DNA from: Myxocyprinus asiaticus
Taxonomy: Eukaryota; Chordata; Actinopteri; Cypriniformes; Catostomidae
Length of the DNA: 64,000 nucleotides
Reading direction: 5' to 3'
NCBI RefSeq assembly: GCF_019703515.2
Contig: NC_059372.1
Coordinates: 12,403,992-12,467,991, forward strand
Part shown: positions 6,970-31,375 of the stretch, in pieces
How positions within the stretch are numbered: the first letter of the stretch is position 1
Layout of the letters: each line of letters opens with the position of its first letter
Program-made: the position numbers and the translations under genes
The notes under the pieces: model-generated
The model's input: only the letters and a program-made list of their open reading frames with translations
The model's database searches: none
What the model was told of the DNA's origin: nothing

Positions 6970-7257
6970 ATGGCAGGAGATGAAGTTCGGCAGAGGAAAG
7001 GAGGTGGCCGCAAGAAGTCCAAGAAGGGGAAAGGGAAGGGTGGTCTGGATAGGACAAGCAGTCTAGATGGGCAAAATGACCTTCTTTTACCCCCACCTAC
7101 TACACCACCCAAGAAGCCTGTGGAGGAGAAGACCAAAACAGCCCAGGCTAAGATAGAAGATGAGTCTGCCATATCTATCTGCCTACAGGTGTTTTTCCCC
7201 TACCTGCTGGCTGGGATGGGGATGGTAATGGCAGGCATGGTGCTCGATATTGTACAG
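6970..7257 (+). CDS. slc41a3: slc41a3 coding exon 1a (N-terminus and first membrane segment)
   Basis: 96 codons, phase-0 donor (TACAG|GTAAGA). The start ATG has a good context (CACCATGG). Residues 1-25 form a strongly basic Lys/Arg/Gly tail, then a Ser/Pro-rich linker, then the first SLC41 membrane segment ending in AGMVLDIVQ. An acceptor-like AG precedes the ATG at about 6948, so a spliced 5' untranslated exon is likely. Confidence 0.9.
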
Positions 7258-10200
7258 GTAAGATAACTCTTGCTCTTTGGGCTTTTGGAGAGCTTTCTGC
7301 AACTGTCTATGATATTTTGAAGCCTGGTGTGATTTTCCATCAGTTTGAGAACAGTTACACATACATGGTTGATGCTATTTCTGCTTATGTGCTCTCTTTA
7401 TATCCAGCGAGTCATAAAGTGATATTTATGAGCCACAGTTATGGGAAGCAGAGTGTGAGTAAAATTAATGTGATCATTTAAAATGTGTTTGGAAATAGAG
7501 AGACTGGACTAGAGTCTAATCATGAAGCATTAAAGGAATGGTTCACCCAAAAATGAAAATTCTGTCATTATTTAGTTAGCCTCATATGTATGACATATAT
7601 GACTTTCTTCTGTGGAACACAAATTGAGATGTTTAGCAGAATGTCCAGGCTGATGTTTTACATTCAACGATAGTAAATAGGTACTGGGGCTGTCAAGCTC
7701 CAAAAATGATGGAAAAGCACCGTAATACCTCAATAAAAGTTGTCCATATGACTCTGTGCACTATTTTCACTATTTTCTTTTTACTTCTGTGGCTTAGCAC
7801 AGGAAACTACTAGTGTTATTTACATTTGTTTAAAATCACTGTATAATGCACACACATATTGACTGTAAAAGTAAATGTTGACAATTGAAACAAACTGATA
7901 ACGTGTGAATGCCATGTACTTTATATCCCAATATAATGGACTTTTGCACAAGTGGATTTTATTAAAATCTCTGACTATATACGGTGACCAACATAACATT
8001 AAGTTTACATTAAGTTAGTTTTCCTTTGAACACAGCTGTTTCCTTTTGAACGAACTGTAATGGCGTCTAAGGGCACTTAAATACTCACCAGATGGCGGCA
8101 TTTATAGGTAAATCTGATATTGAAAAACAGATGACAGATGAAAAAAGTGTAAATATCAGAAAAACATCAGAAAATCAATTTATCGGGCGTTCTCTACACC
8201 AAACACGTTTTTCAGTTCATCTGTGCTGTTTTTCAGTTGTTTTTCTATGTAAACATGAGCTAGTTGGACGTGTTTGACTATTGTGTGTTGCTGCATTTTT
8301 TTTAGAAGAACTTCAGCTTTTAAAAACGCATCTTGAGACACTTGCATTCCGTTATATTTGTTTGCTTCGTTTAGCTTTTTTTAGTGCAGGAACATGTCTG
8401 GCCCCCTTATCAGGTCAGTGTGATTTGGGGCTGGATGTGCTGCGTCATCATGCTGTGCTCACAATCAAGCTGTTTTCTTTAGCTGAATCATGCCCCTTCG
8501 CTCTTGATGTGTCCTCTACATGGCAGCTGGTATATTGGGTGAGTAATCGAGCAATGCTTTTACAACCCCATGGGTTCTGAGTCTGTCTTTGTTTTCAAAC
8601 ACACATACACACACTTGTTCTCTCAGACTATCTCTGTTTCTTCTCCTTGTGTCTTTTGAGCACTCAGCCCCATTCACAGCTGATAAGACAGGTTTTAGTA
8701 CGTCAGAGGAGACATAAGTAGAGAGAAAGAGAGAGAGAGAAAGCAAGCAGGACAGAACGAGACAGAGCTAGAATAGGGACAGACGGAAGGCATCTCGAAC
8801 GGCACTTAGAGGATGGAGGAGAAAGGAAACGTTAGAACAGATGATGGTACCATTGACCATTAGAGGGCTTGCCACCTTGGAAGGAATGAAAAAAAAAGAA
8901 AGCTTAAACATGTGTTTCTGACACATTCTGGACCTGTTTGACCAGGCCTGGTGACAGAGTGACTAAAGACAGTGGAAGACTAGACATTGAGCTGAACAGG
9001 ATTTTTTGTCTTGTGAGTCACGACTCCAACTGGGAATGCAACACAAACACGGTTTGGACATCATAGCGCTCACGTATATTGATATTCCTGCCACATGAAA
9101 GAGATATTAGGAAAGGCAGCTTGAGAATTGCTTCAAGAGTTCTCCAGGGATGACCGTGTCAAACTTCTAGATGCTTCGTCTTCTCAGACATATGATGGAT
9201 CTCAAGGTTTTGGAAGTGAAAACTGATGAAGACCATGTCTCTCAGAGAATCCGCTGAAGAAAACAGATTACGTGATGCATAGCGGAGACTGTTGGGAACA
9301 ATTTGAACTTGGTTTTGATGTTGCAAAAAAATGTTTTTAAACTTTTGAATGTGAAGGCACCTTTTGGATTCATTGATAGCAGAACTAATGACCTCTACAT
9401 CTCCTTGCATAATATTTATAACAGCTTCCTGGGTGCCTCAGACCTTTTTGGCCTTCTTGTGGAACAATATAAAGAAAAGTTAGCATCTTATTTTTCTCCT
9501 TCCAGACCTAATTACTTCATATTCATCATATGTCTCTTTGTCCTGATGTGTTCTTGCGTTCCTTTGAATTTAAACTTTATGAAAGGAGCATTCTGCCATC
9601 TAGAAGGGTGTTAAACCTTCCAGAACCTCAACAAACCTTTTAGTCACAGCCCCCACCATTGGGGAATGGGGTAACAGAGATGGTGGTCACTCAGTTAGAG
9701 CTGGAGCTCTGTTATCAGGGGAAGAAGCTCAGAGGTTTCAAATGCAAGCTCACCCGCTCAGCTCATGGCTTCCTGCCTGAGAGCTCATACATCATCGCTG
9801 CACATGTCTTGTTGCCGTATCTGCTGGGAGGGCTGGGGATGGTGGTGGCCGGTATTGTCATGGATATTATTCAAGTATGACCAATTTAGTTAAGCTTTGG
9901 AGAATTTTGTTGTACATGCTGTTGAAATTGGAAGTTTGAAGGTCTCTAGTGTTTTCAAACTATTGAAAGCATAGTATGGATAACATTTTAAAAGCACTGT
10001 GAAAGAACCATGATTCTTTAATGGTATCAGATGGTAATACCATGGTACTTTGATATACACTCACCGAGCACTTAATTAAGAACACTATTGTCCTAATAAA
10101 CTGCCCGACTTGGTCATCTGCTAGTGTAGTCCATCCGCCTCAAGGTTTGACATGTTGTGCATTCTGAGATGCTATTTTGCTCATTACAGTTGTACAGAGT

Positions 10201-13200: not shown

Positions 13201-16200
13201 TGTAAAGTTACATATGTACATGAGATATGTATATACATTATTGCACTAAGGGGGAGTCCTGAGGCAGTTTAATTGTTCTTGTGCCTGGATGTCCTGGCAC
13301 TCAGTGCTCTGTAGCGCCGGCCAGAGGGCACCAGTTCAAAGAGGGAGTGGGTAGGGTGTGTGAGGTCTAGAGTGATTCTACCTGCACGTTTCCTCACATA
13401 CTGGTCTTGGAGGGTGCACAGGGGGGCACCAATAATCCTCTCAGCAGTCCTGACTGTCCGTTGTAGTTTCCTTCTGTCTGATTTGGTGGCTGAACCAAAC
13501 CAGACAGTTAAAGATGTACACAGGACAGACTCAGTGACGGCAGAGTAGAACTGTTTCAGCAGCTCCTGGCAGGTTGAACTTCCTCAGCTGGCAAAGGAAG
13601 TACAACCTCTGCTGAGCCTTCTTCACAATGGAGTCTATGTGGGTGTCCCACTTCAGGTCCTGAGAGATGGTAGAGCCCAGGAACCTAAATGACTCCACTG
13701 CTGCCACAGTGCTGTTCAGGATGGTGAGGGGAGGGGGTGCAGGGGGGATTTCTCCTGAAGTCCACTATCTGTGGACTCAAGATGGCACCGAGTATGGCTG
13801 CTGCGTTGCGAGCTCCGACACAACATTGTAGTTTTTTGTTTGTTTTGTTTACAATTCGTATGTTTTTTGTCTTGGATGTTGTCTGCCTTATTGTCTATGA
13901 CAGACAAACACTTTTGGACATTGGTTCTGCAATTACACACCGTAAACCGGACTTCAAATTCCTCAATGCCGACCCGCTGTTTACAAACCCGCTTACAGGC
14001 AGAAACTGAAACAGGAAGCACCCACCCTCAGAACGATCCAGTGCTGGTCAGACCAATCAGACTCTACGCTACAAGACTGTTTTAATCACGCGGACTGGGA
14101 GATGTTCCGGTCCGCCTCTGATGACGACATCGAGCTTTGCGCAGATAGCGCAACGTGTGTCATCAGAAAGTGTATAGAGGATGTTGTTCCGTCCAAAACA
14201 ATACGGATCTACCCGAACCAGAAACCTTGGATTAATAGCAATGTTCGCGCAGCACTTGATGCGCGGACCTCCGCTTTTAATTCCGGGAACACGGAGGAGC
14301 ATAAACAAGCCAGTTATGCCCTCTGAAAAACATAATCAGAACAGAAAATCAGAACAGCGAAACGTCAGTACAGGAACAAGATTGAAGGACAGTTCAACAC
14401 CACCAACTCTAGAAGCATGTGGCAGGGAATTAACATCATCATGGACTTAAAAGGGAATAAAAACTCCGCCGTGAACACTGCTGCATCTCTCCCGGATGAG
14501 CTAAATACTTTTTATGCTCGTTTTGAGGGAAATAACACCGCCCTCACGGAGAGAGCTCTCGCGGCCGAAGCTACAGAGGTTAGTTCACTCTCCGTCTCTG
14601 TAGCGGATGTAACCCGATCCTTCTGACGGGTGAATATCTGTAAAGCCACGGGTCCAGATGGCATTCCGGGCCGCGTCATCAGAGCGTGTGCGAACCAACT
14701 GGCTGTTGTTTATAAGGACATGCTTTAAAACATCCACCATTGTGCCTGTTCCAAAGCAATCCAAAATCACTTGCTTAAATGACTGGCATCCTGTTGCTCT
14801 GACCCCCATCATCAGCAAATGCTTTGAGAGACTAATCAGAGATTACATCTGCTCTGTGCTGCCTCCATCACTGGACCCATTGCAGTTTGCTTACCGCAGC
14901 AACCGCTCCACTGATGATGCCATTGCATCTACAATACACACTGCTCTCTCCCACCTGGAAAAAAAGAATACTTATGTGAGAATGCTGTTTGTAGACTACA
15001 GCTCAGCATTCAACACCATAGTGCCCTGCAAGCTTTATGTGAAACTCCGGGCTCTGGGCTTAAACAGCTCACTGTGCAGCTGTATCCTGGACTTCCTGTC
15101 AAGCAGACGCCAGGTGGTTAGAATGGGCAGCAAAATCTCCTCATCACTGACCCTCAACACTGGAGCCCTGCAGGGCTGTGTTCTCAGCCCACTCATGTAT
15201 TCCCTGTAAACACATGACTGTGTGGCAACACACAGCTCCAATGCCATCATTAAGTTTGCTGATGATACGACGGTGGTAGTTCTGATCACTGACAATGATG
15301 AAACAGCCAACAGAGAGGAGGTGCACACTCTGACACACTGGTGTCAGGAGCACAACCTCTCCCTCAACCGGAGCCATGGGCTGTTCTTACTGCTACCATC
15401 AGGCAGGCGGTATCGCAGCATCAGGACCCGAACCAGCCAACTACATGACAGCTTCTTCCCCCAAGCAATCAAGACTTTTGAACTCTTGATCTCTCATGAT
15501 CAAAATACATCAGCAATGCACTTTATTAATCTTATTATCTCACACTGGACTGTCATAAATTATATTCTCTCTTAACAACACACTGGCAACTTACTATCAA
15601 TGGACAGCCTGAATGTCAATTCAGTACAATACAACCTACTGTATATTTTATATATACAATATAGACTATTTTTATTTTTTTATTGTATAATGTGTATTCT
15701 ATATTGTGTGTATTGTATACTGTACATTGTATGTTATTATTTGTATATTGTATTATGTGTAATTATGTGTATATTAGATTTTAATTGGGTTGTGTAAATC
15801 TGATGTTTATTGTAAATTGGTATATGTCTCATCACTGTCACGACTACTATGTTGCTCGGAACTGCACCCAAGAATTTCACACACTATTGCACTTGAGTAT
15901 ATGGTTGTGTGACAATAAAAGTGATTTCATTTTGATTTGATTTGATCATCCCACTGTTTTGAGCCTGTTCAGCTCAAGGTTGTTGTGACCGCACCAGATA
16001 GCCAGCTGATCAAGCTCCCGTCTGTATGCAGACTCGTCACCATCGCGGATGAGGCCGATGATCGTGGTGTCATCTGCAAACTTCAGGAGCTTGACAGTGG
16101 GGTCTTTTGCAGTGCAGTCATTTGTGTACACGGAGAAGAGCAGTGGAGAGAGTATGCATCCCTGAGGAGCACCAGTGCTAATATTGAAGGTCCCGGATGT

Positions 16201-19200
16201 GAGTTTCCCCAGTCTCACTAGCTGCTGCCTATCTGTCAGAAAGCTGGTGATCCATCGACAGATTGGGGTGGGCACGGAGAGCTGGGTCAGTTTGGTTGAG
16301 AGAAGGTCAGACATGATGTATTGAAGGCTGAATAGGATCCTTGCATAAGTCCCAGGTCTGTCGAGGTGTTGCAGGATATAATGCAGTCCCATATTGACAG
16401 CATCACCCACAGACCTTTTTGCTCAGTAAGCAAACTGAAGGGGGTCCAGCAGGGGTCCAGTGATGTCCTTAAGGTAGGCCAAAACCAGTCTCTCAAACAG
16501 CTTCATGACCACAGACGTGAGAGTGACAGGAGCGACAAGTCCTGTGATTGTGTGTTTTTTGGGGACCGGAATGATGATGGAGCGTTTGAAGCAGCAGGGA
16601 ACTTCACACTGCTCTAGTAATCTATTGAAGATCTATGTGAAGATTAGGGCCAGTCGGTCAACGCAGACTTTCAGACAGACAGGTGAAACACCATCTGGCC
16701 CTGAAGCTTTCCTAGTCTTTTGTTTCCGAAAGACCCGGCACACATCCTCCTCACAGATCATAAGTGCAGATTGAGTAGCAGGAGGGGGGAGGAGGGGGGT
16801 TCCAGGAGGTGTTGCTGTGTGTGTGTGAAGTGAAGATCAGAGCGGGGGAGGGGTGTGAGACTGGAATTTTCAAACCTGCAGTAAAACACATTCAGTTCAT
16901 TAGCCATTAGTTGACACTCTACCGAGCAAGGGGCAGGTGTCTTGTACTTGGTGATATTTTTTAGGCCTTTCCACACAGATGCAGGATCATTGGCTTAAAA
17001 CTGGTTTTTCAGCTTTTTAGAGTAGCTTCTTTTAGCTACTGTGTGTTCCTGGCCTGGTTGTACAATGTTTTATTCCCACTTCTGTAAGCATTCTCTTTGG
17101 CATGACGAAGCTGTCTGAGTTTTCCTGCAAACCATGGTTTATCGTTATTGAATGATAAAAATGTCCTAGTAGGGGTGCACATATCCTCACAGAAACTGAT
17201 ATATGATGTCACAGTATCTGTGAGCTCGTCCAGGTCTGTGGCTGCAGCCTCAAAAACACTTCAATCAGTGCAGTCAAAGCAGGCTTGTAGTTCCAGCTCT
17301 GCTTCATTGGTCCATCCCTTTACAGACCTTACTACAGGCTTAGCTGATTTTAGTTTCTGCTTGTAGGCTGGAAGAAGATGAACCAGACAGTGATCAGAGA
17401 GTCCTAAAGCTGCACATGGGACAGAGCGAAATGCATCCTTTACAGTAGTGTAGCAGTGGTCCAGTATATTTCTTTCTCTGCTGGGGCATATGATGTGTTG
17501 TTTGTATTTTGGCAGTTCATGGGTAAGGTTAGCTTTATTAAAATCACCCAGAATAATGATAAGAGAGTCCGGATGTTGTTGCTCCGTGTCTTTGATGTGA
17601 TCAGCCAGCTGTTGCAACGCTGCATTCACACACGCTTGTGGCGGGATATAAACACTCATCAGAATGAACAAGGAAAACTCCTGCAGTGGGTAGAAAGGCT
17701 TACAGTTGATGAATAGCACCTGCAAATTAGGACAGCACATCTTCTTCAATGCTGTTACATCTTTACACAAACTTTCGTTGATGTAAAAGCATGTTCCACC
17801 ATCTCTCGTTTTCCCCGATAACTGCTTGATGCGATCCGCTCTGAACAGCTGGAAGGCCGGCAGATGTAATGCGCTGTCCAGGATGGCTTCTTTCAGTCAG
17901 GTTTCCATGAAACACAGAGCAGCGAAGTTAGAAATGTCCTTATTTGTTTGAGTGAGCAGAAGCAGTTCATCCGTTTTGTTGGCGAGAGAGCGGACATTCG
18001 CTAGATGAATACTCGGCAGCGGAGTCCTAAAGCCACGTTGACGAAGCTTCACAAGCACGCCAGCTCTCTTCCCTCGCGTGCGTTTTTTTGGATCACTTGT
18101 AGAGCACCACTGCGCTTCCAACTAAGATGGCTAGTAAAACATCAGAATAATCAAACACTGGCAAAAAATGATCAGAAATGCTCTGCCGAATATTTAGCAG
18201 TTCATCCCTGGTGAAACTGATCGGGGAGGTGACAAAAAACATGATAAAAAAAACAAAAGTAACAAAAACGCTAGAGAGCTCCACACCGAAGCAGCCATCT
18301 GTGGCGCCATCTTGAGATTTATCAGTACATGCTGTATTATAGATTTACATGTGTCTCTTTTGATATTTATTTTATAAACACTGTTTTCACAGTACCAGGT
18401 CAACCTCAATATTATGAAGAACCAACTCAAGATAACAGTTTCAAACCATTTGTCTTAATACTGCTTTTTGTGTGTTTCAGCACTGGGACGTATTTAAAGT
18501 GATCACGGAGATCTTCATCCTGGTACCTGCTCTGGTCGGGCTCAAGGGAAACCTGGAGATGACTCTAGCGTCTCGACTCTCTACTGCTGTATGTAAAAAC
18601 ATTAAAAAATAAAAACAAAGAAAAAAGCAGATTGGTACAGTAATGTACAGTGACTAAAAATGTATTTGTACATTTATGTCACACTTTAAATGTACTGTAT
18701 GAATGTCATTGCATTATATAATAAAATATCAAAGAAAGTGGCATTTATTTTAAAGAAAGGTATCTCAAGCACACTTTTCATGCCATCAATTTCACAAAAA
18801 GAAATTTGTTTGGTTTGACATGCTAAAACAATAGCTATACCAGTCAAAATGAATACAGAAAGAATCTCTAGAGTTTACTCAGAATGGTGCCAAAAACAAA
18901 AAACATCTAGTGAGCTGCAGTTCTGCGGACGGAAACACCTTGTTGATGAGAAAGTTCACCAGAGAATTGCCATACTGGTTCGGGGTGAGTGAAAGGCTGC
19001 AGTAACTCAGATAACCACTCTGTACAATTGTAGTAAGCAGAATAGCATCTCAGAATGCAGAACATGTCAAACCGTGAGGCGGATGGGCTACAACGGCAGA
19101 AGACCACGTTGGGTACTTAATTAGGACCATAGTGTTCCTAATAAAGTGCTCAGTGAGTGTCTATTAAAAATGACCTAGACACCAATTGGTTAATTGCAAA

Positions 19201-21972
19201 AATAGCTCAGAAAAGTGAAGTTAGTTCTGAGAAAAGCTCTAGCATCATTTGTTTGAAGATGCCAGTTGATTTGATAGTTTGTTATCTAATGACAATGTCT
19301 TTCAGACATTTTTAAGCATGGCATACACACTACTTATTATCTATATCAATCGGTAACCATGGCGTTTAAAGGCCTAGGTATTATCAAATGTGCCTCAATG
19401 ATTAAATTAAGATGTTTCAAGCTGTAACCTGCTTCACTGCTTTTGTTGGCTCTTTCGCAGGCTAACACCGGACAGATGGACGACACCAAACAGCAGTGGA
19501 TGATGGTGACCTGTAATCTTGCTCTTATTCAGGTGGGTGAGTCTCAAACACAAAGGGCCCAATGGATTGGGAATCACTATTGATATTTTTGTGTAATCCA
19601 CAGGAAACAGGCTTAAAGTAGTAGCTGTCAAAGTGAAAATATATAGGTTACAAACATGAATTAAAATCATTAAACAAATGTAAAGGAATATGTGCAATTA
19701 CTGTATAAGACTTCATGTTGAAGGAAACTTTAAAAACCATGAATAGTGTCTTGAATACCAATGAGTACTCATTATAAAAAATTATTTTTAATCTCCTTTA
19801 ATTATGAATGAAAATGATCTGCTCTGATGAGCTGCTGTGATTGCCAAGTTGGTTCTCTGCGCACTATGAATGTTAGGCCCTGTGCTTTCCCCCTCAGGTT
19901 CAGGCTACTGTAGTGGGCTTCCTGGCAGCTCTTGCAGCTGTGGCTCTTGGTGCTGTGTCCAGAGGAAGTGTTGAACTGGACCAAGCCGCTGTGCTGTGTG
20001 CTAGCAGCGTTACCACTGCGTTTGTGGCAGCACTGTCTTTAGGTACACCGCTCTCTTTATCATTTAAAGTCAACATGAAATTGACTCTATTTTCTTTCTT
20101 AAACACCCCATGAAGTCAAAATTAGAGTTTTGTTTTTCAGATCATGTGTGTTGGCTTTAAGGCCAACTCTATGCAAATGTAGCAGTGGTAGCTCAGCGGT
20201 TAAGGCTCTGGGTTACTGATCAGAAGGTCGGGGGTTCAAGCCCCAGCACCGCCAAGATGCCACTGTTGGGCCCTTGAGCAAGGCCCTTGACCCTATCTGC
20301 TCCAGGGGCGCTGTATCATGGCTGACCCTGCACTCTGACCCCAGCCTAGCTGGGATATGTGAAAAAAGAAGAATTTCACTGTATATGTGCAAATGTATAA
20401 TGTGTGATAAATAAAGAAAATTATAATTATTATTATAAATGTACTCCTGTACATTGACAGAACACTCTTATATATGCAGATATACTGTACACATTTAAAA
20501 TGTACAGTCTCTCTTCCGGGAAAACCGACCAAAATATTGATGACTCATCTTGCACTACACAGATTTTTGTCCACATTTTTTTTCCAAAATAAAAAAGAAT
20601 TCAGAACTCCAAATGCACAACTAAATTTGGTAAAATTGTGCATGTCCAGAATTCAAATGAACAAATTTCAGATTTAAGTTATTGTTTTAGCTCGATAGAT
20701 TTCATAAATTGTTCTCATAATCGTTCGTTAAAATGTAACTTTCTTAAAAATGTTCTTTTTCTTAAAAAAAAATATCTTTTTCTGCTGAAAAACCTCATGG
20801 ACAGGGTAAAATAACATGTAATAAATAAAATGACAATTCACTTTTACAAAGGATCAAATCAAGTCTTGCTCTATAATATTTTGTTGCATGTTGTACTCTA
20901 TATGCACTCTCACAGAATACTTTTGGAACATAGTTATCGACACAACGGAAATAACAACCTTTTGTTTTCATTGTGCTTATATTTTTAAAGAATTGTTTTA
21001 AAACCTTTAAATGCCCAAAAATCAGGACCATCTAGGATAATGCATCATAATCTTTCAGTCTTTGTGTCTTTCATATACCTAACATGACCCCTGAAATCCA
21101 GTAATCAGTTCTACTGGTCTTTATTCTCTGTCTGCAGGTCTGATTATGATTGGTGTGATCATTGGCTCCAGGAAGGTGGGCATCAACCCTGATAATGTGG
21201 CTACACCGATAGCCGCCAGTCTGGGAGATCTCATCACTCTGTCTTTACTGGCTGGAGTCAGCAGCACTCTGTTCCAGTACAGAGGTGTGAGAGCATATAG
21301 TCATTTAGTCTTCTTGATATTACCTAATAATTGCAAGTTTTTATGCATGAAAATACATATTGTTGCTTATGTTACAAAGCAGGTTGATATCTATCAACAA
21401 CCTTAAAGAAATAGTTCACCCAAAAATGTAAATTATGTGGAAATTTACTCACCCTCATGTTGTTCCAAACCTGTATGACTTTCTGTGGAACACACACGGA
21501 TGTTTGGCAGAATGACAGCATCAGTCACCATTTTTGTTATTTGTGTCTCTAAAGACTACATGCTACATGAGTGAGCTGTTCAAAGCATCAAATACTGCTT
21601 AACAGGAAGCATTAGACATTTCCCCTTATTTAACACATGCATACACAATGAAAAATACTGGTGGAGCCTATATTTTTAACTGTTGTGAGAATATGGTACT
21701 GTTGTTACATCAAGGTCCCAGAAGAGGGCAGTAGATAAGTACTAAAAAGATATTGGTGATTTGCATTACATACATGGTTTCTGTGATTAGACACCGAGTG
21801 AAATCAAAGAAAGATACAGTAGTGGGAATCTCCTCCCCTAGGGAAAGTCCTCTTGCTGTTTTGTTTAAAAACACTAAAATTCCAGAGAGGAAGTTGTTAC
21901 ATGTACAAAGTGCTTAATTAGAATCCTTAAAACCCTAGATTTTCTAAATGTACTTCTGTATGATTTAATGGG

Positions 21973-22007
<35 letters not shown>

Positions 22008-22669
22008 GTGTCATCATTTACTCACCCTCATATTGTTCAAAACCTCTATGACTTTCTACGATGGAACACAAAAGGAGATTTAATGCAAAATTTGAGCTTT
22101 TATTGTTTACTTTCATTGCATGGAATAAAGATGCAATGAAAGTGAATGTTGACCGAGATTAACATTCAGCCTAACATCTCCTTTTATGTTATGGAAAAAA
22201 ATAGTCCTTTGGGTTTTGGAACAACATGAGGGTGAATAAATTATGATATAATTTTCATTTTTGGGTGAAATAACCCTTTTTATGTCCCTTTTGAGTGAAA
22301 TAACCCTTTTAAGTTTCACAGGTGGCATCAGTATAATGTAAAATGTTTGTGTATGTTCAGATGTATGGTACTTGTCCCCTCTGGTGTGTGGCTTCTTCCT
22401 TCTACTCATTCCTTTCTGGGTGGTCATCGCCAGACGCAGTCCTCAGATTAAAGAGGTGCTCAAGTCCGGCTGGCAGCCTGTATTAGTGGCCATGTCCATC
22501 AGCAGGTACAAAGACATCAGAATAAAACATCAAATAAGCATGATCAGATTGAAATTTAAAATATATTTTGTGCCTGTAATCAGATTTACTCAGGGTTTTC
22601 ACAGTCATGGAAAACCTGGAAATATCAGGGAATTTTAATGTATCTGAGAAAGTCATAGTTATGAATAAT

Positions 22670-23313: not shown

Positions 23314-26300
23314 TGATCGTGCCTGGTAACATGTGCATGTAAAATGGCTAGAAATAGCATTTTAGCTTAGCGTAAAGCTTACAATTTACACAAGGTTTAT
23401 TTCTATTTCTTCTGCTCCAAACTTACTTCAAACGTACTTCTCTGTCTGCTCGTGTGAATGTAACACATCATAAGAAAGTGTTTCACCGCTGTTCAAATGC
23501 ACTTTGGATCGCATCATTTATATGTATAAATGTTTTTCATCTGAAAGGACTAAATATTAAATGAAACAAATGACAATAAAATGCAAAGTAATCTCTTCAG
23601 TAATCAAAATACTTTTTGAATGTAACTGTATTCTAATTACCAATGATTTAAATTGTAACTGTAGTGGAATACAGTTACTCATATTTTGTATTTTAAATCC
23701 GTAATCCCGTTACATGTATTTCGTTACTCCCCAACCCATATATATGGATATTTTTTTATTATTAATGTCACTATAATAATATAGCAATATAATTTTTCTA
23801 GTTATAATCTTCTGTAAATGTTTCAAATAAGAGTCCAATATCTATAATATTACTTGTCCAGTAATCATTAATGACTGGAAAAGTCATGGAAATTCATTTG
23901 TCTAAAGATGTGGGAACCCTGTTGGCTAGATTTGAGTTTTATTCAGTTGTGAATAATTCAGAAAATCAAAAACTGTAATTTTTTCTGTTTGTACACTGTT
24001 TATAAAGAGACTTGATTAGACATTACTCATTCAAGATGTGAGTTTAATTATGTTATATAACAACGATTGATAATAATTTGATATGACTGTGAATTTTATT
24101 TTAATGAGTCTTTTCCCTATTTAAGTTTTGGAGGTCTTATTCTTGATAAGACTGTGAGCGATCCGAACTTTGAAGGAATGGCTGTCTTCACGCCTGTCAT
24201 AAATGGTGAGTAAATGTCAAGGACAAAACATTTCTTTAATATTCATATTTAAATTAAATACTTTATGCCAAATGTACAGAGCATGTTAAAGCTACTTATA
24301 ATTTAGAGAAGTTAAACTACAGTTAAGTTACCCATTTGACAATACAAAATACAAGCTACTTATAAAAATGTAGCAAAATATACTGAAGCTATTTAAAGGG
24401 ATAGTTCACACAAAATGAAAATTCTCTGATGATTTACTCTTCCATCATGCCATCCCAGATGTTTGTGACTTTCTTCTGCAGAACACAAATGAAGATTTTT
24501 TGAAAAATATTTCAGCTCTGTAGGTCCTCACAATGCAAGTGGATGGGTACCAAAATTTTAAAGCTCCAAAAGGACATAAAAGCAGCAAAACAGTAATCCA
24601 TAAGACTCCAGTGGTTAAATCCATGTCTTCTGAAGCGATATGACAAGTGTGAGTAAGAAACGGATCAATATTTTAGTCCTTTTTTACTAATAATCTCCAC
24701 TTTCACATTCTTATTCTTGTGTTTTTATATAGAAGAATGCAAATCACAACCTACTGGGCAGGGAGGAGAATTTATAGTAAAAAAGAACTTAAATACTGAT
24801 CTGTTTCTCACCCACACCTATCATATTGCTTCAGAAGACATGGATTATCCACTAGAGTTTTATGGATTACTTTTAAGCTGCCTTTATGTGCTTTTTGGAG
24901 CTTTAGTTTTGGTCACCATTCACTTGCATTGTGAGGACCTAAAGAACTGAGATATTCTTCAAAATATCTTCTTATCTGGGATGGCATGACGGTGAGTAAA
25001 TGATGAGAGAATAAAAAAATAAAAAAAGCATTTTTGTAGCACTTTGCCCCACTACACCGCTATTCATTGGAAAAAGTAGCTTTTTACTAGAAAAGCTACA
25101 GTATGTTATACTGAAACAGCTGAACTACTGTCACGCTACTGAAAAGTGTAAGAACATTAGTGTCACTACTTCTAGTTAGTCACTCCTCAACAGTGGTACA
25201 ATATAACAGTTTGCCTGAAAAACAAGTTTAGAATTTTGCTTAAGCCTTTCTCTCTCCAACTTCTAATCACATTAAAATAGATCACATATCTCATACTCCG
25301 TGTTTTGAGTTACTGCTCAGCTTGTTAACTTAGGACGGCGATCTGACTCTGCTGCCAAAATGAAACCTTTTTCATTCCAAATCGTCCCAATAAATCAGGG
25401 CACTGGTTCTTTGTTTGCGACTTTCTATTGTACATTAAATAATTAGAGTATTTTGATGGGAGTATAAGTAATAGACTTAAAAACCCCAATTGAGGCTGTC
25501 AATGGCAGAGTTTGTTGGTTTCACGTAAAATATCACTTGTGGTGATTTGTGATCTTCTGCAATCTGTTTTTGATTTCCTCTCTCTGGTCCCATTCCTATC
25601 CAGCTGCACATGTGCACTACCAGTGTTCTGTCCCTCTCAAACGATGGCTCAATCCGACGCAAGAATATGTTGCCAGAAATTGCATGCTTCCAAATGGGAA
25701 TCGAGTGCGTAAAAGTTTGTATAAACTGTTTAATCCAGTAATAAAGGGGTGATTCTCATGAAACCTGTCAGTTAAATGTCATATTTAACCCTAAATCAAT
25801 GCAAACAATATTAAATTCAATTAAAATGAAGCCTACATTTAGGATAAGTAAGCCTACATTAAGATATTTTTGCATTGTGACATTATTTTCAGGACACTTA
25901 AAGCAATAGTAAATCATCATTTACTCACCTGCATGCCATCCCAGATGTGTACGGTTTTCCTTGTTCTGCAGAACACAAAGATTTTTAGAAGAATATGTCT
26001 GCTCTGTAGGTCCATACAATGCACGTGAATGGTGGCCAAAACGTTGAAGCTCCAAAAAGCACATAAAGGCAGCATAAAAGTAATCCGTACGACTTGAGTG
26101 GTTTAATCCATGTTTTCTGAAAGGATCCAATTGGTTTTGGTTGAGAACAGACCAAAATATAACTCCTTTTTCACTATAAATCTTGACATCAGCAGTCTCC
26201 TTGGTGATCATGATTTCAAGCTTGATTACACTTCCTAGCGCCATCTAGCGCTCTGCGCATGGTCAAGCACTAGGAAGTGTAATCAAGCTGGAAATCACGA

Positions 26301-29300
26301 TTGTGCCTAGAGACTGCAATGGCAAGATGTACAGTGAAAAAGGAGTTATATTTTGGTCTGTTCTCACCCAAAACGGATTAGATCGCTTCAGAAGACATGG
26401 ATTAAACCACCTATAATGCTCATTACCATAACAGTCTTTTTTTTACTGTATTACAGTAAAAAAAATTCTGTTGTACAATTTTTATTTTCATTGAAATTAG
26501 TGAAAATGGAAAGCAGTACTAAGCGAGTGCTATTATGATGTATACATTTTAAATGTTTAATTTTGTCACGTTCTGATAATAAGAATATCATAATGACCAT
26601 CTTTTACCATGTTGCAATAATGAAAATTGGGGGTGCATAATTGTCATGAAAATAATGTCATTTTCTATATCCAAAATCTAATTTCTTATTTGTTACTTTT
26701 AATTTTGGAATAAAATAGGATCAGGACATTTTTTGACAGGTTTTGTGAGAATCACCCAAGAGTGCAGTAACTGATTTCTCTGCAGTAAACTCCTATGACG
26801 TCTTCTATGGCTATTTGTCTGGATCTGGAACAATGCAGACTATTTTTCCAGCTTAGTCCCAGACAAACTGCTCTTAATGAGGAACACAAGGTGGCAGTGA
26901 TTCAGGAAGACTAATTTGATATCTCATTAACTGGTTCGATATTCATGTGAAGGAATGCCCTCCTGCTGTAATACAAAACTGTCATTTGGCATTTTCACAT
27001 TATACGCTCAAGCTGAAGTGTGGAAAGGCTATTAATTGCACACATAATACTTTGATGGTGGCGAAATGTGCTGAAAAATATACATTTATGTCAGTGTGCA
27101 TATTCTCCTACCTAGACGCATGCCATTGACATGAATAGTTTATACGTTCCATTTTTTTCTGAAATGAGTGAATATGAGAATTGTAATGGTGTAGTGATTG
27201 GAAAGCTCTAACATTCTTTCCTCTTTATTTTCAGGTGTGGGGGGAAATCTGGTGGCCATCCAGGCGAGTCGGATCTCCACCTACCTTCATTTCTGGAGTG
27301 TCCCTGGAGTGCTGCCCTATAAGATGAGACAGCACTGGCCCAATCCCTGTGTCACATTCTTCTCCTCTGGTGAGGTCACTTCTAATCTATTTGTGTGCCT
27401 AACATGAATTCTCTCACTCCTTTGGGTCCTTGAGATAAAGTCCCTAATTTTGATCATTCTCAGTCATATAATTAAATGAGGCCCTTTCACCTGTGTTGTT
27501 TTTCTCCAGGAGTGAACTCCAAGTCAGCCCGGGTGCTGTTCCTCCTGGTGGTACCGGGTCACCTGTTGTTTCTCTTTGCCATTAATATGCTACAAGGTGG
27601 TCACACTGCCATCACGCCAGCCTTTACCTGCTGCTACCTGGGCGCTGCTCTACTTCAGGTGAGTCCTACGTTTTTTGAAAAATAGTTAACTTTGATTCTA
27701 ACCCAGCACCAAGTTTAAATATATACTGACTCAACATGAGCTGTTTACATGGGAAAATGTGAAACAAGCACTGTTATGTACATATTCACACTGATTGTTT
27801 CACATAGTAGCTCCATTTGCCAAGGACAAATAGGCAGTTGACAAATTTAACTGTAGTGTAATCAAAGAAAAAAGTCTATATTATTTTTCCATTTACTTCA
27901 AAAAAAGAAAAAGGTCAATATTTTTTTTTTTTTCCCATTTAAAAAAAACAAAACAAAAAAAAGGCCAATATATACAGTGCATCCGGAAAGTATTCACAGC
28001 GCTTCACTTTTTCCACATTTTGTCATGTTACAGCCTTATTACAAAATGGATTAAATTCATTATTTTCCTCAAAATTCTACAAACAATACCCCATAATGAC
28101 AATGTGAAAGAAGTTTGTTTGAAATATTTGCACATTTATTAAAAAAATAAATAAATAAATAAATAAAAAAGATAACATGTACATAAGCATTCACAGCCTT
28201 TGCCATGACACTCAAAATTGAGCTCAGGTGCATCCTGTTTCCACTGATCATCCTTGAGATGTTTCTACAACTTGGAGTCCACCTGTGGTAAATTCAGTTG
28301 ATTGGACATGATTTGGAAAGGCACACACCTGTCTATATAAGGTCCCACTGTTAACAGTGCATGTCAGAGCACAAACCAAGCCATGAAGTCCAAGGAATTG
28401 TATGTAGACCTCCGAGACAGGATTGTATCGAGGCACAGATCTGGGGAAGGGTACAGAAAAATTTCTGCAGCATTGAAGGTCCCAATGGGCACAGTGGCCT
28501 CCATCATCCGTAAATGGAAGAAGTTTGGAACCACCAGGACTCTTCCTAGAGCTGGCCGCCCGGCCAAACTGAGCGATCGGGGGAGAAGGGCCTTAGTCAG
28601 GGAGGTGACCAAGAACCCGATGATCACTCTGACAGAGCTTCAGCATTTCTCTGTGGACAGAGGAGAACCTTCCAGAAGAACAACCATCTCTGCAGCACTC
28701 CACCAATCAGGCCTGTATGGTAGAGTGGCCAGACGGAAGCCACTCCTCAGTAAAAGGCACATGACAGCCCGCCTGGAATTTGCCAAAAGGCACCTGAAGG
28801 ACTCTCAGACCATGAGAAATAAAGATTGAACTCATTGGCCTGAATGGCAAGCATCATGTCTGGAGGAAACCAGGCACCGCTCATCACCTGGCCAATACCA
28901 TCCCTACAGTGAAGCATGGTGGTGGCAGCATCATGCTGTGGGGATGTTTTTCAGCGGCAGGAACTGGGAGATTAGTCAGGATCGAGGGAAAGATGAATGC
29001 AGCAATGTACAGAGACATCCTTGATGAAAACCTGCTCCAGAGTGCTCTGGACCTCAGACTGGGGCGAAGGTTCGTCTTCCAACAGGACAACGACCCTAAG
29101 CACACAGCCAAGATAACAAAGGAGTGGCTCCGGGACAACTCTGTGAATGTCCTTGAGTGGCCCAGCCAGAGACCAGACTTGAACCCGATTGAACATCTCT
29201 GGAGAGATCTGAAAATGGCTGTGCACCGACGCTCCCCATCCAACCTGATGGAGCTTGAGAGGTCCTGCAAAGAAGAATAGGAGAAACTGCCCAAAAATAG

Positions 29301-31375
29301 GTGTGCCAAGCTTGTAGCATCATACTCAAAAAGACTTGAGGCTGTAATTGGTGCCAAAGGTGCTTCAACAAAGTATTGAGCAAAGGCTGTGAGTACTTAT
29401 GTACATGTGATTTGTTTCGTTTTTTATTTTTAATAAATTTGCAAAGATTTCAAACAAACTTCTTTCACATTGACATTATGGGGTATTGTTTGTAGAATTT
29501 TGAGGAAAATAATGAATTTAATCCATTTTGGAATAAGGCTGTAACATAACAAAATGTTGACAAAGTGAAGCGCTATGAATACTTTCCGGATGCACTGTAT
29601 AAATATATATATTTTTTCATTTACAAAAAAAAAAAAAAAAAAAAAAAAAAGGCCAATATTAAGATTTTCATTGCTTGTCTGGACAGAAAAAAAAGATTAT
29701 TCATATAAAAATAAAATTATCAATTCAAATGGAGTTTTTCCAAGTAAATTTCAAGTCAAATTTAGAAATTGTTCTGCAGTATGACTTAAATAATTAATGT
29801 GGATCTAAATACAATTAAATATATTAAATTGGGGTCTATTTTTTAAATATGACTTGACATAAACGTACATATTACCTTCAAGACGTAAAAAAGTTGAAAC
29901 AATTTTGTCACTTTGTCAGCAATTATTGAGGATGTTTATTTTATTCTATTTTTTTTTTTATATATATATATACATTTTTAAATAGGCAGTCTTTGGGGAT
30001 TCTTGAAAAAATTGCTAACCGAAAAAATTATGCTTAGACGTTAATAACACGATTCGTTTTACCTCCTACTATTACTTAAATTTGTACGTATGTGTGAAAC
30101 TACATCCATGTTTTTCAGTCCTAAAATGTGACATCTCTACACAAGCGATTTTCAGTATTAATAAGTTAAAGCTTTACTTGAATGCTAAATTATGCAATGC
30201 TAACTGTTTGCAAGATTGTCAAAACCACTTCATAGCTTAAAACTAGGAATGCACCGATGTATCGGCTGACGATATTTGTCGGACAATATTTGACCAAATT
30301 AAAACCATGGGCATATCGTTTATAAGCATGAAAACGCTGATATGAAAAACTGATGAAGAACTCGGGGAATTTTAATGCAAAATCCACAAATAATAATAGC
30401 CACAATATGTAAAAGGGTTGGCACTCCTAAGAACATGTAATATTTCATTTTTATTCATTCTCAATCTCACGTTAATGTGGAAAAACAGCCATAAACATAT
30501 GTGACAGTTGTGAATGCAACACTTACCCATAGGCTACATGGTAAGGGAAACCATTAAAAATGCTTTGAAACCAGCAGACTTTGACTTCTGAGACATCGGT
30601 ATGATATCCATTAATGCTGCACGATTGATTGAATTCAAATTTAAAAATCGCAATTTGGCCTTGCTAAACCAATTACTAAACATTAAAAGGCTGCTTTTTG
30701 GGGGCCTGGGTAGCTCAGTGAGTAATGACGCTGACTAACACCCCTGGAGTCGCGAGTTCAAATCCAGGGCATGCTGAGTGACTCAAGCCAGGACTCCTAA
30801 GCAACAAAATTGGCCCGGTTGCTAGGGAGGGTAGAGTCACATGGGGTAACCTCCTTGTGGTCGCTATAATGTTGTTCTCGCTCTCGGTGGGGTGCTTGGC
30901 GAGTTGTGCGTGGATGCTGTGGAGAATAGAGTGAAGCCTCCACACATGCTATGTCTCCGCGGTAACACGCTCAACAAGCCACGTGATAAGATGCGTGGAT
31001 TGACTGTCTCAGACGCAGAGGCAACTGAGATTCGTCCTCCGCCACCCGGATTGAGGCGAGTCACTATGCCACCACGAGGGCTTAGAGCGCATTGGGAATT
31101 GGGCATTCCAAATTGGGGAGAAAAACAACCCAAATATTGAGAGCCCAAATATTTTTTGCATGTAAAATAATTTGTTTTTAATCATGAGTTTTCCCTCACA
31201 GGTCGGGATCCTTATTTATACGGCTGACTTGATTGTGCGTTTGGTGTGGAGGAAAGGACTGGACCCTGATAACTTCTCCATCCCATACCTGACTGCACTG
31301 GGTGACCTGTTAGGCACGGGGTTCCTGGCCCTGTGTTTCCATCTGGTCATGTCAGTGAAGGGGCTTGGCCTGTAA
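6970..31375 (+). CDS. slc41a3: Solute carrier family 41 member 3-like Mg2+ transporter, spliced gene
   Basis: Predicted multi-pass membrane protein of the SLC41 (MgtE-related) family, which carries Mg2+ and other divalent cations. Coding exons: 6970-7257, 18481-18588, 19461-19532, 19898-20042, 21138-21284, 22361-22505, 24126-24205, 27235-27369, 27510-27658 and 31202-31375. They total 1443 nt, giving 480 residues plus stop, with all phases matching and GT-AG at every junction. The protein has two homologous halves. The first has the GLKGN motif (116-120), NPDN (221-224) and GD (234-235). The second has GVGGN (329-333), DPDN (444-447) and GD (457-458). Segments such as the AANTGQ run after exon 2 and the [12 protein letters not shown] stretch resemble SLC41A3 more than SLC41A1 or SLC41A2, from recalled family sequences. 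The length is close to human SLC41A3 (about 507). Exon 1b at 9650-9874 can replace exon 1a. The gene converges on chst13. Confidence 0.93.
7510..7760. mobile_element. Fragment of the GTTCACCC foldback/MITE family
   Basis: Starts with the hallmark GGTTCACCCAAAAATGAAAA, followed by the degraded CTCA...ATGACTTTCTTCTGTGGAACAC segment seen in several other copies in this window (for example 21405, 22003, 55495). The matching right end is not clear, so the copy is partial. Confidence 0.6.
7761..9649. other. slc41a3 intron 1 between the alternative first exons
   Basis: No recognisable coding segment. A purine-rich GAGA tract sits at about 8718-8745, followed by a G/A-rich stretch to 8850. This might be promoter DNA for exon 1b, but nothing decisive is visible. 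Confidence 0.4.
9680..9874 (+). CDS. slc41a3: slc41a3 alternative first coding exon 1b
   Basis: 65 codons from an ATG at 9680 with a purine at -3, ending at a phase-0 donor (TTCAA|GTATGA). The last 32 residues align with the end of exon 1a at about 18 identical positions, including the PYLL, AG and D-I-x-Q landmarks of the first SLC41 membrane segment. The N-terminal part is unrelated to exon 1a and lacks its basic tail. The frame is open back to a stop at 9641-9643. An acceptor-like CACAG at 9645-9649 means the exon may instead be internal and start at 9650. Joined to exon 2 it predicts a 449-residue isoform. Its coding status is inferred from amino-acid similarity and phase. Confidence 0.75.
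10062..10608 (-). mobile_element. Decayed Tc1-like element with a transposase HTH remnant (family B)
   Basis: Both ends carry the inverted motif CACTCAC[TC]GAGCACTT (left about 10061-10080, right about 10585-10607). On the minus strand, 10430-10209 reads as a helix-turn-helix segment ([16 protein letters not shown]) typical of the N-terminal DNA-binding domain of Tc1-like transposases. The catalytic domain is absent, so this is a deletion derivative. Related copies lie at about 18862-19160 and 42350-42630. Confidence 0.7.
10209..10430 (-). pseudogene. Transposase DNA-binding domain remnant
   Basis: A 73-residue open frame containing a helix-turn-helix with the pattern S-x-x-A-x-L-L-G-F-S-x-T-T-V-S-R-V-Y and then RQF and RADR elements. 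Tc1-like transposases begin this way. The DDE catalytic part is missing, so it cannot encode an active enzyme. Confidence 0.6.
10918..11271. mobile_element. Second copy of MITE family A
   Basis: The right end (about 11241-11271, CCCCATTCACTTCCACTGTAAGTG) and the interior (CATGTTAACGTGTATAATGTTTGTGTCTTGTGGCTATACTTTTG, split by differences) match the element at 51-254. The left end (TAATGGAAGTGGATTGAGCCAG) is more diverged. Confidence 0.55.
11272..12965. other. slc41a3 intron 1, unrecognised AT-rich sequence
   Basis: Starts with a short TG tract (about 11279-11292) and contains a (GTTAT)n repeat at 12889-12915. Open frames here are short and lack family signatures. Confidence 0.45.
12889..12915. 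repeat. (GTTAT)n pentanucleotide repeat
   Basis: About five tandem GTTAT units with one variant (CTTAT). Confidence 0.85.
13778..15946 (+). mobile_element. Internally deleted L2-type LINE (L2-A) nested in L2-B
   Basis: Begins with AAGATGGCACCGAGTATGG, similar to the start of L2-B, and ends with an AATAAAAGTGATTT motif and an imperfect (TTTGAT)n tail at 15925-15946. The endonuclease domain is absent: 5' sequence jumps directly to the linker that precedes reverse transcriptase near 14030. The part after the FADD motif is also shortened (LSLN is followed directly by the C-terminal end at about 15370). It is therefore non-autonomous. It interrupts L2-B without an obvious target-site duplication. 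Confidence 0.85.
14658..15575 (+). pseudogene. L2-A reverse transcriptase fragments
   Basis: The frame 14658-15209 has the blocks [47 protein letters not shown] and [11 protein letters not shown] of a LINE reverse transcriptase. A stop at 15207-15209 breaks it. The frame 15222-15575 continues with KFADDTTVV, the catalytic FADD box, and the C-terminal end [10 protein letters not shown]...FFPQAIK. Broken and internally deleted. Confidence 0.85.
15947..16976 (-). pseudogene. L2-B reverse transcriptase fragment
   Basis: The 16410-15947 frame contains the palm signature FADDTTIIG together with [13 protein letters not shown] and [16 protein letters not shown] blocks. These are characteristic of the reverse transcriptase domain of jockey/L2/CR1-type LINEs. 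Upstream pieces of the same domain lie in other frames to about 16976 (for example [12 protein letters not shown]). Frameshifted, so a pseudogene. Confidence 0.85.
17261..18121 (-). pseudogene. L2-B endonuclease (APE-like) domain fragment
   Basis: The 17770-17261 frame carries the endonuclease landmarks SVYIPP, ILGDFN and LGLSDHCLV, in the order expected for the apurinic-type endonuclease at the start of LINE ORF2. The more N-terminal piece ([20 protein letters not shown]) lies in 18121-17897 in another frame. The domain is split by at least one frameshift or stop. Confidence 0.85.
18481..18588 (+). CDS. slc41a3: slc41a3 coding exon 2
   Basis: 36 codons, phase 0 on both sides, acceptor TGTGTTTCAG and donor GTATGT. 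It encodes the segment with the GLKGN motif followed by [11 protein letters not shown], a signature of the first SLC41 pore half. It joins to either exon 1a or 1b. Confidence 0.95.
18862..19160 (+). mobile_element. Tc1-like remnant family B, second copy (opposite orientation)
   Basis: Shares the segment around AGAATGGTGCCAAAAACAAAAA and the end CTAATAAAGTGCTCAGTGAGTGT (to 19160) with the 10062-10608 element, in reverse orientation. The left end is truncated. Lies in slc41a3 intron 2. Confidence 0.65.
19461..19532 (+). CDS. slc41a3: slc41a3 coding exon 3
   Basis: 24 codons, phase 0, acceptor TCTTTCGCAG, donor GTGGGT. It encodes ANTGQMDD..., a loop resembling SLC41A3. Confidence 0.95.
19898..20042 (+). 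CDS. slc41a3: slc41a3 coding exon 4
   Basis: 145 nt, starts in phase 0 after CCCCTCAG and ends in phase 1 at GTACAC. It encodes [18 protein letters not shown] and a second hydrophobic segment ([17 protein letters not shown]), both membrane-spanning. Confidence 0.95.
20183..20438 (+). mobile_element. tRNA-derived SINE with LINE-like 3' tail
   Basis: The 5' part looks like a tRNA with an A-box (TAGCTCAGCGGTTAAGG) and a B-box (GGTTCAAGCCC). A unique body follows, then an ATAAATAAAG tail with short AT repeats. It resembles widespread teleost tRNA-derived SINEs, whose tails are similar to those of partner LINEs. It sits in slc41a3 intron 4. Confidence 0.85.
20439..21137. other. slc41a3 intron 4, no further feature seen
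   Basis: AT-rich intron sequence up to the acceptor TGTCTGCAG. No repeat or RNA gene recognised. Confidence 0.5.
21138..21284 (+). CDS. slc41a3: slc41a3 coding exon 5
   Basis: 147 nt, phase 1 to phase 1. It encodes a membrane segment (LIMIGVIIG) and the signature [15 protein letters not shown], in which the acidic residues are expected to line the cation path by analogy with MgtE. The donor is GTGTGA. Confidence 0.95.
21403..21560. mobile_element. GTTCACCC foldback/MITE fragment
   Basis: Begins AAATAGTTCACCCAAAAATG and continues with TTTACTCACCCTCATGTTGTTCCAAACC and ...GACTTTCTGTGGAACAC, typical of the family seen repeatedly here. The right half is missing or diverged. Confidence 0.65.
21976..22282. 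mobile_element. Palindromic MITE of the GTTCACCC family, with poly(A) on the left
   Basis: A run of about 27 A (21976-22002) is followed by TCATCATTTACTCACCCTCATATTGTTC. The right side carries the inverted equivalent GAACAACATGAGGGTGAATAAATTATG and TTTTGGGTGAAATAACCC near 22220-22282. Non-coding. Confidence 0.65.
22361..22505 (+). CDS. slc41a3: slc41a3 coding exon 6
   Basis: 145 nt. It starts by completing a GAT codon and ends with two bases of an AGT codon (donor GTACAA). It encodes [19 protein letters not shown], a membrane segment, then a cytosolic [14 protein letters not shown] loop and the start of the second SLC41 half. Confidence 0.95.
22506..24125. other. slc41a3 intron 6 with microsatellite and transposon end
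   Basis: Contains a (TA)n tract at about 22674-22722 passing into (CA)n. This is followed by ACACTACCGGTCAAAAGTTTTG at 22750-22772, which resembles the end of a fish Tc1-type MITE; the rest of that element is not clear. A second short (TA)n lies at about 23290-23312. Confidence 0.6.
24126..24205 (+). CDS. slc41a3: slc41a3 coding exon 7
   Basis: 80 nt. It encodes [12 protein letters not shown] and MAVFTPVIN, the start of the second homologous half. Acceptor TATTTAAG is weak in pyrimidines close to the AG but has TTTTCCCTATTT upstream. Donor GTGAGT is strong. Confidence 0.95.
24394..25010. mobile_element. Foldback element with ~240-bp inverted arms
   Basis: The left arm starts AAAGGGATAGTTCACACAAAAT and contains CATGCCATCCCAGATG and GTCCTCACAATGCAAGTGGATGG. 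The right arm holds the inverted equivalents (CATTCACTTGCATTGTGAGGACC, ATCTGGGATGGCATGACGGTGAG). The centre includes CCTACTGGGCAGGGAGGAG. It belongs to the same family as 40571-41204 and 51254-52062. Lies in slc41a3 intron 7 and would form a long hairpin in the pre-mRNA. Confidence 0.8.
25011..25905. other. slc41a3 intron 7, spacer between two foldbacks
   Basis: No coding or RNA feature recognised. Short frames at 25477-25752 overlap on both strands and lack family signatures. Confidence 0.45.
25906..26405. mobile_element. Second foldback element with a tight central palindrome
   Basis: The left arm carries CATCATTTACTCACCTGCATGCCATCCCAGATGTG. Around 26210-26290 the sequence CAAGCTTGATTACACTTCCTAG is followed by its inverse CTAGGAAGTGTAATCAAGCTG. 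The arms continue with ATATAACTCCTTTTTCACT and AGTGAAAAAGGAGTTATAT. The far right arm is truncated near 26405. Same family ends as the 24394 element but a different centre. Confidence 0.75.
26406..27234. other. slc41a3 intron 7, right part
   Basis: AT-rich intron leading to a strong acceptor (CTTTATTTTCAG). No other feature recognised. Confidence 0.5.
27235..27369 (+). CDS. slc41a3: slc41a3 coding exon 8
   Basis: 135 nt, phase 1 to phase 1. It encodes [18 protein letters not shown], the second-half counterpart of the first pore motif, and the [18 protein letters not shown] loop that points to SLC41A3 rather than its paralogues. Donor GTGAGG. Confidence 0.95.
27510..27658 (+). CDS. slc41a3: slc41a3 coding exon 9
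   Basis: 149 nt, phase 1 to phase 0. It encodes [18 protein letters not shown] and a second hydrophobic stretch ending AALLQ, both membrane segments. Acceptor TTTTTCTCCAG, donor GTGAGT. Confidence 0.95.
27975..29597 (+). mobile_element. Tc1-like DNA transposon, copy 1
   Basis: Begins CAGTGCATCCGGAAAGTATT and ends with the inverted AATACTTTCCGGATGCACTG. TA dinucleotides at 27973-27974 and 29598-29599 are the expected Tc1/mariner target duplication. The inverted repeats are long: outer and inner matching blocks extend about 170-200 bp from each end, including CAATACCCCATAATGAC and its inverse. Total length is 1623 bp. The transposase gene inside is broken. Lies in slc41a3 intron 9. Confidence 0.95.
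28383..29379 (+). pseudogene. Tc1-like transposase pseudogene, copy 1
   Basis: The first frame (28383-28829) encodes the paired-type DNA-binding region: [19 protein letters not shown], then the second HTH with [16 protein letters not shown]. The second frame (28909-29280) has the catalytic part with [12 protein letters not shown], the second Asp in FQQDNDPKH and Glu in LNPIEHLW. Between them the frame shifts, and the block that normally carries the first catalytic Asp (WSDE in Tc1-like enzymes) is missing. A further stop (TAG at 29278) cuts the C-terminus. Intact relatives are about 340 residues long. Confidence 0.92.
29598..30699. other. slc41a3 intron 9 with poly(A) and hAT-like fragments
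   Basis: An A run at about 29623-29651 follows the transposon. Around 30246-30300 AGGAATGCACCGATGTATCGGC resembles a hAT end without a visible partner. Near 30615-30660 CTGCACGATTGATTGAATTC...AAAATCGCAATTTGG resembles the repeat at 57440-58690. Confidence 0.45.
30701..31140 (+). mobile_element. Long tRNA-derived SINE upstream of the last slc41a3 exon
   Basis: The 5' end has an A-box-like GGTAGCTCAGTGAGTAATG and B-box GAGTTCAAATCC of a tRNA head. A body of about 360 bp follows (CGGTTGCTAGGGAGGGTAGAG, CTCCGCGGTAACACGCTC, CCACCCGGATTGAGGCGAG) and an A-rich end after GGAATTGGGCATTCCAAATTGG (split by short gaps). I recall this type from cyprinid genomes, but the family name is not certain. It ends about 60 bases before the exon-10 acceptor. 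Confidence 0.8.
31202..31375 (+). CDS. slc41a3: slc41a3 coding exon 10 (C-terminus)
   Basis: 57 codons plus a TAA stop, phase-0 acceptor (TTCCCTCACAG). It encodes [13 protein letters not shown], the second-half [15 protein letters not shown] motif and a last membrane segment ending VMSVKGLGL. The cytosolic tail is very short compared with human SLC41A3. Confidence 0.95.

Follow-up and report, generated by a model that had tools for sequence, protein, structure and literature searches.

Franken et al. (2025) described an isoform of mouse Slc41a3, Iso 2, and an isoform of human SLC41A3, isoform 4, that use an alternative intronic start (PMC11811817). According to the main text of that paper, the mouse start lies within the second intron of the Iso 1 gene, giving unique N-termini of 90 amino acids (Iso 1) and 64 amino acids (Iso 2), and the human start lies in intron 2 of isoform 1. 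In mouse, the distal convoluted tubule is enriched in Iso 2, which transports more Mg2+, and the two isoforms also differ in surface level; Iso 2 is proposed to be a distal-tubule Mg2+ extruder and is called conserved in humans (PMC11811817). Unlike the mouse pair, human isoforms 1 and 4 are nearly alike in transport and location, with only the 24-h loading higher for isoform 4, and isoform 1 also has its own C-terminus (PMC11811817). Because the human isoforms differ so little in transport, the functional difference is not proven to be general. The main text of this paper contains the terms "transmembrane", "duplicat", "zebrafish" and "vertebrate" 0 times. Judged by titles and the openings of abstracts, none of the papers listed in our literature searches concerns a fish slc41a3 first-exon pair, and a paper on salmon (PMC11605958) has 0 occurrences of "first exon" and "alternative" in its main text.

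The window, the 64,000-nucleotide stretch of Myxocyprinus asiaticus DNA that we analysed, contains an slc41a3 gene with two alternative first coding exons, a pair of the kind already published in mouse and human (PMC11811817). Exon limits were placed using the splice consensus and a comparison with human SLC41A1 and SLC41A3 sequences; all nine shared exons are present in the homeologous gene at 91-97%. The features of the gene are as follows.

6970-7257, + strand: slc41a3 coding exon 1a, 96 amino acids, phase 0, ending in CAG before gtaaga; a 64-residue Lys/Arg/Gly/Pro tail followed by the first transmembrane segment TM1a (32 residues)
9650-9679, + strand: stretch immediately preceding the 1b start codon, free of stops in the 1b frame, with 27 of 30 bases kept in the homeolog
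9680-9874, + strand: slc41a3 alternative coding exon 1b, 65 amino acids, phase 0, ending in CAA before gtatga; a conserved 33-residue tail followed by TM1b (32 residues)
18481-18588, + strand: shared exon 2, with tttcag preceding 18481
19461-19532, + strand: shared exon 3
19898-20042, + strand: shared exon 4
21138-21284, + strand: shared exon 5, holding the SLGD motif
22361-22505, + strand: shared exon 6
24126-24205, + strand: shared exon 7
27235-27369, + strand: shared exon 8
27510-27658, + strand: shared exon 9
31202-31375, + strand: shared exon 10, with the stop codon

Exons 1a and 1b each comprise a whole number of codons, have a GT donor and join exon 2 in frame at 18481; when joined to exons 2-10, they give proteins of 480 amino acids (1a form) and 449 amino acids (1b form). 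"First coding exon" is a safe term for both, and the coordinates, frames, phase 0 ends and splice sites given in the preliminary description agree with our reading of the sequence.

As in the mouse gene, a putative alternative intronic start precedes the shared exons and both forms have the same MgtE body; exon 1b codes in frame and occupies the intron that separates the Iso 1-type start exon from the shared exons. The unique N-termini are 96 and 65 amino acids long in the fish and 90 and 64 in mouse, and in both the first-helix residues lie inside the unique part, as judged for mouse from published primers. The Iso 2 primer encodes VAIPIL, aligned by eye with VLLPYL of TM1b, and the Iso 1 primer encodes TSLIIG, aligned by eye with SAISIC at the start of TM1a (PMC11811817). 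In the 1b form, the Asp of SLGD has residue number 204, as does the pore residue D204 of mouse Iso 2, to which it is presumably equivalent. The two systems differ in that expression and transport data describe the mouse pair, whereas the fish pair is known from sequence alone and exists in two homeologous copies. A homologous N-terminus can be followed through a series of fish, lungfish, amphibian, reptile and marsupial sequences (65 versus 64 residues) that matches the helix residues encoded by the mouse primer. Because position, phase, length and this sequence series all fit, we take exon 1b to be the fish ortholog of the first exon of Iso 2; the link to placental mammals comes from the published paper (PMC11811817).

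The overall explanation that we consider very probable is that slc41a3 has two promoters serving alternative first exons, with 1b orthologous to the start of mouse Iso 2 and human isoform 4. The upstream promoter would give exon 1a transcripts and a second one, presumably a separate 1b promoter in fish as well, would lie inside the following intron and give exon 1b transcripts, each first exon being spliced to exon 2 at 18481. A cell would make one or the other MgtE-type Mg2+ transporter, the two having different cytosolic tails and first helices and sharing the rest, including the pore. By analogy with mouse, the 1b form would be tissue-restricted, better at reaching the cell surface and able to move more Mg2+, and the 1a form would be broadly expressed; isoform functions in fish may match those in mouse, and the tail may do as much of the work as the helix.

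Two segments around and upstream of exon 1b, 8420-9050 and 9478-10040, can be aligned to the homeolog (79% and 86%) and are candidates for the 1b promoter. Upstream of 1b, a reading frame of two codons, ATG GGG TAA (9666-9674), stops 5 bases short of the start codon, and the homeolog has it unaltered. Carp and Labeo models show the residues GNGV ahead of their 1b start, which suggests that the frame is preserved in these fishes as well. Translation of the 1b form could be damped by it.

In both isoforms, the only Pfam family identified is MgtE (PF01769), with two stretches in each (E 5e-45 and 1e-45), and by these two domains both predicted products are SLC41 / MgtE-type Mg2+ transporters. The gene was assigned to SLC41A3 on finding separate A1- and A2-like loci elsewhere in the same genome, the A1 and A2 labels being judged by comparison with human sequences. 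Tetrapod proteins that share the 1b exon are mostly named SLC41A3, with three birds named "member 1". Many fish slc41a3 database entries carry the name "solute carrier family 41 member 1" despite having the 1b exon. A sulfotransferase frame lies downstream at 35064-36020 on the - strand (Sulfotransfer_2, E 4.5e-79); it is perhaps chst13, and as CHST13 neighbours SLC41A3 in human, the neighbourhood would fit. The first-helix exon of the SLC41A1-/A2-like genes resembles 1a, with 69% (L012) and 59% (L010) identity over the last 32 residues and 49% over 41 residues in L011. Whole-genome searches found one first-helix match per contig at these loci and no 1b tail, although a very diverged exon could escape such searches; among the SLC41 loci of this genome, the 1b tail was seen at slc41a3 only.

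When the 65 residues of exon 1b were searched alone, 157 of 176 candidate proteins matched at E<=1e-3. Among the 120 of these 157 that were listed, from which taxa were taken, are proteins of carp, Labeo, Sinocyclocheilus, catfishes, characins, salmonids and many spiny-rayed fishes, as well as of a bichir relative, Amia, sturgeon (82% covered), lungfish, amphibians, a turtle and birds. A Xenopus 1b query matched 49 of 200 candidates and adds tuatara, lizards, a snake and wombat, and a wombat 1b query matched 5 of 12 candidates at E<=1, four of them marsupial. No placental sequence was returned by the fish (matches listed), Xenopus or wombat queries, and sharks and lampreys are not among the 120 listed matches of the fish search, which is no test of their absence. 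Absence of the 1b frame from related cypriniforms, which the preliminary description would have taken as a refutation, is not what we see: carp, Labeo and Sinocyclocheilus proteins have it at 86-94%. Of 143 proteins found in a pattern search, 112 have the 1b start motif M[VAI][VIA]T[QHR] as their very first residues. SLC41A3 proteins of other vertebrates in the database, which often bear names such as "isoform X2", begin with the same 65-66 residues; these are annotations only. By this conservation, exon 1b is an old coding exon, and the pair appears to be common to ray-finned fishes, lungfish and tetrapods, with 1b found directly and 1a and 1b together in fish and bird models.

In the same genome (2.34 Gb, 345 contigs), there are two full-length matches to exon 1b, namely this locus and the homeolog on contig C28, with nine further weaker, partial matches up to E 10. 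Both first exons of the homeolog are accounted for: 1b is intact with 91% amino acid identity, and 1a lies at G000:C28:32796956-32797243 with 93%. Loss of exon 1a from the homeolog had been suggested by the 5.7 kb upstream of its 1b; a further 20 kb shows 1a intact. Between the homeologs, dN/dS is 0.235 for 1b (bootstrap 0.07-0.61), 0.115 for 1a (bootstrap 0.03-0.29) and 0.129 for exons 2-10, the ranges being wide for the two short exons. Could exon 1b be a decaying or fortuitous frame beside the gene? The 1b donor looks weaker than that of 1a, a point that also counts against the two-promoter explanation, yet gtatga is kept in the homeolog; and a plain BLASTP of 1a against 1b reports just the last 14 residues (9/14, E 5e-4). 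A pseudo-exon would not be expected to show conservation from end to end in the vertebrates listed above, nor to be intact in both homeologs at the dN/dS given, even with a bootstrap range reaching 0.61. Together with its presence in cDNA-like contigs, this conservation speaks so strongly against a pseudo-exon that we give the idea almost no weight.

Transposon-like sequences occur elsewhere in the window. The intron before exon 2 holds open frames at 13272-17896 that by eye resemble reverse-transcriptase-type retroelements, and Tc1-like transposase frames, also recognized by eye, are located at 27975-29600 and 39290-40316. An 89% match to the first of these Tc1-like stretches lies in the homeolog, but in another intron, the one separating 1b from exon 2.

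Transcript support for exon 1b comes from cDNA-like contigs of other fishes, in addition to mouse and human. Six proteins were found from the source "lgn", of which five (P0016, P0032, P0142, P0143 and P0144) are whole frames of 450-451 amino acids starting at 1b; of the named sources in the found set, spiny-rayed fishes are closest to them. The coding exons from 1b to the stop codon cover 21.7 kb in the window and the longest contigs of the five measure 1.7-3.6 kb, and therefore these look like, and probably are, spliced messages. In the sixth protein (P0064), 1b is followed by unrelated sequence, which looks like the product of unspliced genomic DNA.

The same proteins bear on the possibility that one message contains both exon 1a and exon 1b, so that the protein has two first helices. 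Splicing at an AG at 9648-9649 would keep 1a and 1b in one frame, no stop interrupts the 1b frame from 9644 onwards, and 9 of the 146 database proteins found have 1a followed by 1b (P0003, P0004, P0005, P0007, P0008, P0009, P0010, P0069 and P0123). However, the linkers differ among these models, with only carp P0003 and Labeo P0004 sharing a part, as would be expected of gene predictors if they were forced to use both exons; the longer carp/Labeo linker is closed in this fish by a stop at 9641-9643. The five cDNA-like proteins begin at or beside the 1b methionine, and a second first helix would probably upset the membrane topology. We consider tandem splicing very improbable, and the nine models are probably annotation artefacts.

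The preliminary description proposed that the pair arose by an old duplication of the segment encoding the first helix, on the basis of about 18 identities in the last 32 residues. Exactly 18 of 32 are identical; in 100,000 shuffles of one helix the mean was 2.8 identities and the maximum 12, so that 0 of 100,000 reached 18, and the second-best ungapped position of the 1b helix within the 1a protein gives 7/32. The parts before the helix are unrelated by eye, as had been described, with 1a bearing the Lys/Arg/Gly tail. An old duplication is supported, and so is the proposal of two transporters with differing N-termini and first helices. The helices were further compared, and a tree built, without P0090, with 20 of 21 1b rows kept and with A1 and A2 represented by one row each from this genome. 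The mean identities per 32 residues are 18.4 between the 1b helix and the 1a helices, 18.4 between 1b and A1, and 21.7 between 1a and A1. In the tree (32 columns), the nine 1a helices group together (100/95), but the tree places neither 1b nor the root and so does not date the duplication relative to A1 and A2. Either the duplication predates the A1/A3 split or 1b changed faster, and 32 columns cannot decide between the two.

The preliminary description placed its emphasis on the helix. The first helix does differ between the forms, but the emphasis was one-sided, as the 1b tail is somewhat more conserved than the 1b helix. Nine 1a-bearing models were tried and six were compared on both exons, leaving aside P0069 (pattern unmatched) and P0007 and P0123 (no 1b comparison). 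Between the bird P0009 and this fish, identities are 21/64 in the 1a tail, 27/32 in the 1a helix, 28/33 in the 1b tail and 17/32 in the 1b helix. A second bird (P0008: 19/64, 25/32, 28/33 and 17/32, in the same order) and a catfish (P0005: 26/64, 24/32, 32/33 and 21/32) agree, and a jack agrees more weakly (P0010: 26/64, 28/32, 27/33 and 23/32); the cyprinids P0003 (55/64, 29/32, 32/33 and 29/32) and P0004 (61/64, 30/32, 32/33 and 28/32) are too similar to tell. Sequence comparison between distant species thus suggests that the 1a helix is kept and the 1a tail is not, and that the 1b tail is kept more than the 1b helix, as if the 1b tail were a functional part. The mean column identity in 36 chosen 1b proteins is 0.74 in the tail, 0.66 in the helix, 0.88 in exon 2 and 0.75 in the rest; ranked from the least conserved among 409 windows of 32 residues, the tail is about 177th and the helix about 62nd, a modest difference. 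Between the homeologs, dN/dS is 0.09 for the 1b tail and 0.71 for TM1b alone (0.09-2.57; 32 codons), with overlapping ranges, and constraint on the helix is therefore not shown by this pair. The homeologs also run against the reversed constraint suggested by distant species, as their 1a tail (0.08) is no looser than their 1a helix (0.18).

Structure was predicted twice for the Sinocyclocheilus relative P0006, from 36 and 115 rows, with a mean pLDDT of 71.8 and 70.4 overall and of 36-37 and 47-52 in the three tail blocks. Both low-confidence models draw the 1b tail as a short beta hairpin within residues 4-27, which is a hint only. A comparison of the first model with the PDB gave 0 matches at E<=0.001; three among the 50 rows listed, 4u9l_A, 4u9l_B and 4u9n_A, have a TM-score by target of about 0.6, and we take these to be MgtE structures.

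The two exons might serve different promoters only, with the protein difference being neutral, as the near likeness of human isoforms 1 and 4 in transport and location would allow (PMC11811817). We regard this as unlikely, given that conservation of the 1b tail matches that of the transporter body in the 36 chosen proteins and exceeds that of the 1a tail in the bird P0009, and that in mouse the isoforms are unequal in transport and surface level (PMC11811817). A doubtful combination holds both that the working difference lies mainly in the 1b cytosolic tail and, in view of the mean helix identities, that the pair is older than the split of SLC41A1, A2 and A3 and was kept in A3 alone. The tail element GKKLRGFxCxLTRS...GFLPE would then control surface delivery or gating from inside, with the helix fitted to the tail.

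The observation is sound. The isoform pair that it describes is already known and conserved, nothing unusual of its kind, but its evolutionary detail is useful: what is added to the published work is the evolutionary depth of the pair, the presence of a 1b tail at slc41a3 but, in whole-genome searches, not at the A1- and A2-like loci, and the contrast in constraint between tail and helix. The observation ties the kidney-enriched mouse isoform to an exon of fishes, amphibians, reptiles, birds and marsupials, so that this isoform is not a mammalian oddity. The difference between the two forms may lie in the conserved 33-residue tail of 1b as well as in the helix, and fishes would become usable for knocking out one form at a time.
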